Of a DNA stretch of 34,327 nt, positions 12,212 through 13,504 are shown in pieces. The first letter of the stretch is position 1, and the number at the start of each line of letters is the position of its first letter. The notes beneath the pieces are model-generated. The model saw only the letters and a list, made by a program, of their open reading frames with translations, had not been told where the DNA came from and made no database searches. A program made the position numbers and the translations under genes. The DNA comes from Candidatus Segetimicrobium genomatis (GTDB lineage: Bacteria; Sysuimicrobiota; Sysuimicrobiia; Sysuimicrobiales; Kaftiobacteriaceae), in the NCBI GenBank assembly GCA_005888595.1, contig VBAL01000062.1:4319-38645 (forward strand). Reading direction: 5' to 3'.

Positions 12212-13504
12212 TCACGCCGCTCTGCGGCTGCGCCGCCACATCACTGCGGCCCAGCCGAGGTAATATGCTGCGACGAGCAGCCCCACAACGAGAAGACCCC
12301 ACGGGAGTCGCGGCCAGGGGACCGATGCGTTGACCGCGGCCACTGTCGCCGCGCGCAGCCGGATTTCATCACCAATCTGCTGCGTCCACATCACCAGGAC
12401 CTTTTCGTTGACCGCGGCAATGATGGGATGAGTGCTCTTGGCCTCGCGCGTCACCCGGTTGGTTTCCCGCCAGGTACCGTCACGCCGGCGCAGGTAGATC
12501 TGCCGGTCGTCGTCCCATGCCACATACACGCGGCCGCGGCCATCGATGGCCACCGAGGGATTGAACCCGTTCTGCGCCGGGGCGGAGACTAGTTGCTGGC
12601 CGCTCCATCGCTGCGAGCGCTCGGCGAAGTAGATGCGGCTGCCACCGGAATCTCGGCGCTCCCAGACGACGACCGCAGTACCGTCCGGTCCGGCGGCCAG
12701 CGTGACGGCCATCGAATCCGCGCGCCCCGACGAGATGGTCTCGGGTGGCGTCCAGGCGCGGTCGTACACCCCCGCACCATTCGATGCAGGGCGCAGTGTG
12801 TGCCGTACCTGATAGTTTCGCAGATCGAACTGGTACCAGGCACTATGGAGCCGGCCGGTGCTGTCAATCACCAGCGCCGGATTGATGGCGTCGGGGATGC
12901 CGGGGCTGATGACTTTCGGCTCTCTCCACCCCGCACCATTCGATGCGGGGCGCAGCCGGTTATCGCTGGCGGCTGTGTAGAGGATCTCGTAGATGGAGCC
13001 ATGGCGCGTGGTGATCGCCGGCGCGCCGGCGCGGATTCCATACCAGACCATGTGCACCGTCCCCTGTGCATCGACCGCCAGGGCCGGAATTCCGGCATAG
13101 GCGTCACCTGGAGAGATCTTCAGGGGCGTGCTCCAGCCCCGATTGGCGTAACGCGCATAGTACACTTTCCCGACGCCGTTGTCGTATTGCGTCCAGGCCA
13201 GGTGCACCGTGTTGTCGGGTCCGACCGCCAGGGCCGGGTATCGGGAGTGGGCTCTCGCCTGCGTGACCTGCTGAAGATCCCATCGCCGGCCGTCGGTCGA
13301 GGACGCCACAAAGATCTGTGAGTAGCCGCCCGCGGTGCTCACGAACGTGATGTAGATCTTCCCGGAGGCGTCGACGCCGATCTTCGGCTGGCTGTTGGCC
13401 TGGGTGGCGTCTTCCGTGACGTCTGTGGCCACGACGGTCTGCGCGTTCGCGCTGGAACCTGCGACAAGCGTGACAAGTACGACAAGGGCCGCGATTCTTT
13501 TCAC
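12212..13504 (-). CDS. Exported, membrane-anchored BNR/sialidase-like beta-propeller protein
   Basis: A 430-aa protein with a signal peptide (residues 1-21, cut after ANA). It has about six propeller blades of the form PALAVDxxGTVHxVWxxxxxxxxIYYA and a C-terminal transmembrane helix (about 400-422) followed by a basic tail. The topology is a periplasmic or extracellular propeller held to the inner membrane. Blades resemble sialidase/BNR-type repeats, but no sialidase arginine triad can be assigned, so I call no enzyme activity. Two blades contain the same nine residues LRPASNGAG (184-192 and 237-245), each encoded by a palindromic DNA element. No other blade has this insert. The start follows a Lys-Arg-rich signal and no better one is seen. 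Confidence 0.85.
   Translation of the reverse strand: MKRIAALVVLVTLVAGSSANAQTVVATDVTEDATQANSQPKIGVDASGKIYITFVSTAGGYSQIFVASSTDGRRWDLQQVTQARAHSRYPALAVGPDNTVHLAWTQYDNGVGKVYYARYANRGWSTPLKISPGDAYAGIPALAVDAQGTVHMVWYGIRAGAPAITTRHGSIYEILYTAASDNRLRPASNGAGWREPKVISPGIPDAINPALVIDSTGRLHSAWYQFDLRNYQVRHTLRPASNGAGVYDRAWTPPETISSGRADSMAVTLAAGPDGTAVVVWERRDSGGSRIYFAERSQRWSGQQLVSAPAQNGFNPSVAIDGRGRVYVAWDDDRQIYLRRRDGTWRETNRVTREAKSTHPIIAAVNEKVLVMWTQQIGDEIRLRAATVAAVNASVPWPRLPWGLLVVGLLVAAYYLGWAAVMWRRSRRAA
12770..12796. repeat. In-frame palindromic element, copy 2 (one mismatch)
   Basis: This 27-bp sequence matches the copy at 12929 at 26 of 27 bases. Stem arms are 12770-12776 and 12785-12791, with loop CCATTCGA. One arm base has changed (A at 12788), breaking a stem pair. 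It is read on the minus strand as LRPASNGAG in the beta-propeller gene. Confidence 0.8.
12929..12955. repeat. In-frame palindromic element, copy 1
   Basis: A perfect 7-bp stem (CCCCGCA at 12929-12935, TGCGGGG at 12944-12950) with an 8-base loop CCATTCGA, followed by the shared CGCAG. Translated on the minus strand as LRPASNGAG in the same frame as copy 2. It lies between a blade strand ending TAASDN and the next blade's WREPKVIS, where other blades have no insert. Confidence 0.82.

Follow-up and report, generated by a model that had tools for sequence, protein, structure and literature searches.

A Dispersed 22-bp Palindrome, Probably a Mobile Element, That Adds Nine Codons in Frame to Protein-Coding Genes of Uncultured Bacteria

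Two Near-Identical Inserts in a Beta-Propeller Gene

The window, by which the whole analysed stretch of 34,327 nucleotides is meant, carries on its minus strand a gene (12212–13504) for a BNR-type beta-propeller protein of 430 aa, secreted or membrane-anchored. The assignment is based on the ORF, a Pfam BNR_4 match of its product (E 3e-9), orthologues with 86, 71, and 50–54% identity, and an AlphaFold model that is all-beta with a pLDDT of 77.6; the dN/dS of the gene is 0.25–0.47. An earlier note, made from the sequence alone, had described two 27-mers in a propeller gene, at 12770–12796 and 12929–12955, as identical at 26 of 27 positions and as both encoding LRPASNGAG on the minus strand. These claims held and the coordinates are exact.

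On the minus strand the 27-mer reads CTGCGCCC[T/C]GCATCGAATGGTGCGGGG. Copy B (CTGCGCCCCGCATCGAATGGTGCGGGG, 12955–12929) is made up of the 5-mer CTGCG at 12955–12951 and a 22-bp palindrome at 12950–12929, and copy A (CTGCGCCCTGCATCGAATGGTGCGGGG, 12796–12770) of the same 5-mer at 12796–12792 and the palindrome at 12791–12770. The hairpin of the two copies is CCCYGCATC-GAAT-GGTGCGGGG, with a stem of 9 bp and a loop of 4 nt, and the stem of copy A contains one T.G pair. At the position of the second target repeat lie GTGTA on the right flank of copy A (12765–12769, minus strand) and TGGAG on that of copy B (12924–12928, minus strand), both degraded and agreeing with CTGCG at two of five positions. 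The DNA identity of the two copies is limited to the 27 bp. In the AlphaFold model, the inserts (residues 183–191 for copy B and 237–245 for copy A) are low-confidence inter-strand loops. No further match at up to three mismatches was found in the window beyond copies A and B, and none of 100 dinucleotide-shuffled windows contained such matches.

A Dispersed Family in Three Congeneric Genomes

The window belongs to genome G000 (2.94 Mb, 325 contigs), whose two congeners are G001 and G002; the genomes are metagenome assemblies. In the alignment of the propeller orthologues, copy B is present in all three congeners, as LRPASNGAG in G000, LGPASNGAG in G001, and LRPAPNGAG in G002. G000 and G001 also carry copy A, and in its place G002 has a clean 27-bp gap (RHT^VADRVW). 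Both copies are missing in four family relatives outside the genus (L007–L010). Since copy A is missing in G002 and copy B is present in all three congeners, the copies represent two separate in-frame gains.

The palindrome is dispersed far beyond this gene. Two covariance models (R1 and R2) found 17–22 distinct places in each congener genome and 0–3 elsewhere in the family, with copy totals of about 17 in G000 and about 19 and 22 in the two congeners. Searching the 22-bp pattern at up to three mismatches gave 23–34 strand hits per congener but only background counts in the rest of the phylum; the reversed pattern, used as a control in the congeners, gave no hits. For the 27-mer itself, the sole other genomic match at up to three mismatches lies at the secD-secF junction of G000 (C108:4698), with compensatory changes in the stem. 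About half of the copies are located at gene ends or junctions, where their translation is uncertain.

These results bear on the remaining claims of the earlier note. It had called the copy with the stem mismatch the second copy and taken it to be older or drifting; this failed, because the mismatch copy is copy A (12770–12796), which is present in G000 and G001 and absent in G002 and is the younger one, and the intact-stem copy B (12929–12955), common to the three genomes, is the older. It had also stated that a mobile origin would be refuted if the two copies were the only ones in the genome and orthologues carried LRPASNGAG at both places. Neither was the case, with the further G000 copies found and one or both propeller copies missing in orthologues. 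Its suggestion that the palindrome is mobile or copied and tolerates being translated, in a host unrelated to Rickettsia, largely held, the element being smaller and more widely spread, and the likeness to the Rickettsia palindromic elements (RPE) holds as an analogy but not as an identity.

Several other copies were observed along the way. In the N-terminus of a PilB-like ATPase, a copy occupies one place in two genera (L073, L077, L149, L206), with the peptide RRPAPDGxGRRRxLGE. This is the oldest copy observed, and it may reflect long retention or more than one insertion; because it is common to another genus of the family, some copies may predate the genus. The genome G004, also of another genus of the family, has one copy inside an RlmN gene (L264), adjoining extra residues, and a single copy near the end of a membrane protein gene (L263). 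At two sites common to the congeners (L102/L124/L146 and L108/L130/L141), the palindrome diverges between genomes more than its flanks do and stem pairing is mostly kept, as if the hairpin mutated fast or were swapped between copies, although this is only a possibility. A weak palindrome match at 1551–1572 of the window (G000:C177:5869–5890; GCCTGCACCGCACCGTGCAGCG) has similar sequences in G001 and G002 and is probably native sequence rather than an insertion. A match in DprA (L116) was rejected as chance, being a native motif of equal length in G002.

In-Frame Insertions and Empty Sites

The copies were placed in genes by codon-bias scoring and ORFs. They lie in or at the ends of HemB, GatB, RimM, RlmI, the SecA linker, and the starts of SecF and PPDK; further hosts are an intradiol dioxygenase, an AlkZ-related protein, GH57, an acyl-CoA ligase with two tandem copies, the CoxA end, the signal region of a binding protein, and others. 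The family names were confirmed for HemB, GatB, RimM, RlmI, SecA, the dioxygenase, the AlkZ-related protein, GH57, and the ligase. The remaining hosts were named from a reading of the sequence.

Filled and empty sites were paired by retrieving orthologues with the concatenated flanks, and those pairs that align cleanly differ by exactly nine residues (+27 bp). The HemB site is filled only in G001 and empty in G000, G002, G005, G006, and G009, and the RimM insert is found only in G002. RlmI and the AlkZ-like protein are filled in G000 and G001 and empty in G002 and the outgroups. The GH57 insert is present in G000 and not in G002, the dioxygenase is filled in all three congeners and empty in G006, and the second tandem copy of the acyl-CoA ligase occurs only in G002. 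The GatB insert is confined to G000, but its exact boundary is less certain because loop length varies among relatives. The HemB insert comes after the Cys-rich loop (GHCGV), and those of HemB, RimM, and GatB are in loops that vary among solved structures. Purifying selection acts on the host genes, with a dN/dS of 0.06–0.29.

A 22-bp Palindrome Between 5-bp Direct Repeats

The common unit is a palindrome of 22 bp, CCCTGNRCC-NNNN-GGTNCAGGG, with two inverted arms of 9 bp and 4 bp between them. Its stem covaries, and 95.8% of stem cells are paired. The palindrome lies between direct repeats of 5 bp with the consensus CNNNG, often with a purine before and a pyrimidine after. Among 55 copies, the flanking 5-mers show a direct identity of 70%, compared with 54% (sd 2) for shuffled partners, and inverted identity is not raised. 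Perfect repeats flank 16 of the 55 copies vs. 3.0 expected, and the maximum in 10000 shuffles was 10; among periods of 20–35, only 27 gives a peak. The 55 copies include orthologues, and with one copy per locus the repeats are still perfect in 12 of 37. Three 24-bp variants (L113, L138, L139) were excluded from the repeat statistics as a different form.

The empty sites hold the 5-mer once: RlmI has CGCAG when empty and CGGAG twice when filled, and the empty sites of HemB and RimM hold GTGCG and CCCTG. The flanking 5-mers vary from copy to copy (CGGCG, CCGCG, CTCCG, CGCTG, CTGCG, and others) and match each other, with no fixed tag. Tandem copies have one 5-bp spacer in common. A widespread ATTGC...GCAAT repeat measures 23 bp without the palindrome and 50 bp with a copy nested inside it. 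The 5-bp direct repeats bear the hallmark of a target-site duplication, and the sum of 22 and 5 is 27, so the reading frame is kept. For the two window copies, the duplication is inferred from other copies, because their own right-hand 5-mers are degraded. Several copies of their subfamily (CATCG) have CTGCG as the left 5-mer, and for this subfamily a 27-bp unit without duplication remains possible and is not excluded.

Other hairpins were also noticed. At L138, L139, L143, L150, and L155 (G001, G002) there is a hairpin repeat, TTGCTTCG-(variable tip)-CTCGCAATGACA, with a hypervariable apical sequence, and its tip sometimes holds the 22-bp palindrome. The 24-bp variants (CCCTGCATCCAACGTGGTGCAGGG) have a similar position and no direct repeats. 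A longer hairpin, CCATGCACC-14 nt-GGTGCATGG, with related arms and a different loop, adjoins the apparent end of a tRNA gene at L262 and L265.

Reading Frames of the Insert

Of the three frames of the palindrome, two give peptides like LRPASNGAG and ALHQTVQGA, and the third gives a peptide rich in Cys and Trp. Both used frames are free of stops. The third frame would arise at 34–38% of candidate sites (estimated for seven window genes only), and it is used by none of about 15 copies inside domains; one degenerate copy, located at the C-terminal end of an S41 protease, does use it. Avoidance of the third frame inside domains argues for translation of the insert. That the insert is translated, and not skipped, is inferred from such sequence evidence.

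Occurrence Beyond the Phylum

Among 386 genomes across the bacteria, the strict pattern was found only in the congeners, in G009, and in three distant genomes, G135 (three hits), G267 (one), and G058 (one, likely by chance). All six genomes examined from the phylum of G135 have copies, with none for the control, and two are found in the genus of G267. The 5-bp repeats are perfect in 16 of 19 copies from the phylum of G135 together with G267 and G127. Because the search pattern used for this second lineage prescribed the C and G at the ends of the repeats, only the three free positions count as evidence. Some of these copies are perfect 22-bp palindromes. In-frame copies occur in CobB-like and MtaB-like genes, whose fragments exceed the family model by nine residues (82 vs. 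73 and 94 vs. 85). This gain rests on the length of the family model, without an empty-site comparison, and a solved-structure search with the CobB fragment gave no match.

How the Element May Move, and Other Explanations

We propose that the copies are members of one dispersed family of mobile, non-autonomous elements in which a single 22-bp palindrome makes up the whole element, and we consider this explanation as a whole likely. Insertion at CNNNG-type sites would duplicate 5 bp of the target, giving +27 bp, that is, nine codons. The palindrome is near-identical on both strands and usually stop-free, and an insertion would thus keep the frame and add a flexible loop peptide that is translated. 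Inserts would survive in surface loops, linkers, and termini, the Cys and Trp frame not being seen inside domains. We presume that a transposase or integrase, working in trans, acts on the two adjoining arms and cuts CNNNG sites with a stagger of 5 bp; this step is inferred only. From general background, IS1380- or IS1634-like enzymes, with their C-rich ends and duplications of 4–6 bp, may be candidates. Neither an autonomous partner nor an enzyme turned up; among the fetched loci, a scan for longer elements bounded by these ends and repeats yielded no convincing candidate, and two half-site pairs considered as composite elements (G001:C13 and G002:C234) turned out to be ordinary genes. Targeting of hairpin tips found no support: flank complementarity beyond the 5-mer is not above shuffled values, and nesting inside other hairpins applies to only part of the copies.

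The simplest alternative is that the propeller inserts arose by duplication of a blade or are a conserved loop, with no mobile element. Both copies are near-identical and sit in inter-strand loops of a repeat protein, as this would predict, but their identity covers only the 27 bp, orthologues lack one or both, and the palindrome is also found in unrelated genes, which all but excludes it. Another explanation is that the palindrome is a REP-type repeat moved as single-stranded DNA by a RAYT (Y1 HUH) transposase. The REP-like size, the palindromy, the adjacent copies, and the occasional intragenic location (PMC3733652) speak for it, as do two PF01797 genes in G000. However, both genes lie between palindromes other than this one (GGGTCAGACCC; GTCAAGTCTTGAC), the element has no constant GTAG or CGTC tag, and 5-bp direct repeats are present, which are not known to arise by Y1 transposition. 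We regard this origin as unlikely. The two RAYT-like genes (L064:963–2006 in C216 and L065:1459–2439 in C88) have palindromes of their own (AAGGGTCAGACCC...; GTGCTATGTCAAGACTTGACCCC), and we consider them separate REP-type systems of the same genome.

In a further scenario, half-palindromic sites give rise to the 27 bp through local template switching or hairpin-primed synthesis, without transposition. It could draw on the targets that resemble a half-element (the RimM empty site, ...CCCTGCAC) and on the existence of tandem copies. Against it, one 22-bp sequence occurs at unrelated sites in two phyla, targets show no extra self-complementarity outside a few nested cases, and most empty sites have no arm; the RlmI filled/empty pair has no arm homology and perfect 5-bp repeats. 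Such an origin is very hard to sustain. It is also improbable that translation skips the inserts, as it does the hop elements of Magnusiomyces mitochondria. The palindromes sit in essential genes, and sequence alone cannot exclude skipping, but the frame is always kept, the used frames have no stops, and the third is avoided, none of which skipping would need.

Relation to Known Palindromic Elements

The RPE of Rickettsia are about 150 bp long (PMC10969869; Ogata 2000, 2002 as summarised in PMC10969869, PMC3733652, PMC6649704). Like them, the proposed mobile palindromes are dispersed and selfish, lie in frame in unrelated conserved genes, are apparently tolerated in loops and termini, and have empty sites in relatives. 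In contrast to the RPE and their peptides of tens of residues, the present element has a 22-bp core and adds 27 bp and 9 aa, has 5-bp direct repeats and another sequence, and is hosted by uncultured lineages, ANGP1-type and others. The hairpins of RPE-4 and RPE-6 bear a CGTC tag, whereas this palindrome has no constant tag. With the REP of the GTAG and CGTC superfamilies (PMC3733652), it has in common a hairpin in the range of 20–40 bp, adjacent copies, and some location within ORFs, but it lacks the constant unpaired tetranucleotide tag, has target direct repeats, and is not beside the RAYT genes of G000. Thus the family works like the RPE, and it fails membership of both RPE and REP on size, host, and tag.

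The MITE (PMC10969869) are likewise non-autonomous, with inverted arms, target-site duplication, and occasional in-frame fusion, but the present element has only two 9-bp arms and 4 bp, with no known parent transposon; the shortest MITE in the bearing sections of PMC10969869 is 39 bp. The family meets the tested MITE features (target-site duplication and terminal inverted repeats) except for a known parent. Coding and intragenic palindromes of mitochondria (Nematomorpha, Magnusiomyces; PMC6649704) are also hairpin DNA in protein genes, gained and lost between species, but the present copies are bacterial and chromosomal, belong to one sequence family, and give a constant net gain of 27 bp. For ten loci with copies, Rfam gave no match besides tRNAs, and no precedent for a 27-bp in-frame palindrome family was found in the literature searched. 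A bolder reading, which we could as readily doubt as accept, makes the 22-bp palindrome a cross-phylum family and possibly the smallest known transposable unit; moved in trans and duplicating 5 bp of target, it would add nine codons and so colonise essential genes without breaking them.

Most known cases of selfish DNA spreading via protein-coding genes come from Rickettsia, where the elements are about 150 bp long. In the uncultured (soil) bacteria described here, which represent two phylum-level lineages, a unit of 22 bp with clear target-site duplications appears to do so, and hemB, rimM, and gatB are among its host genes. The filled and empty sites of sister species make it possible to test what nine residues cost a protein, the lower size limit of mobile elements, and how such small palindromes may move.
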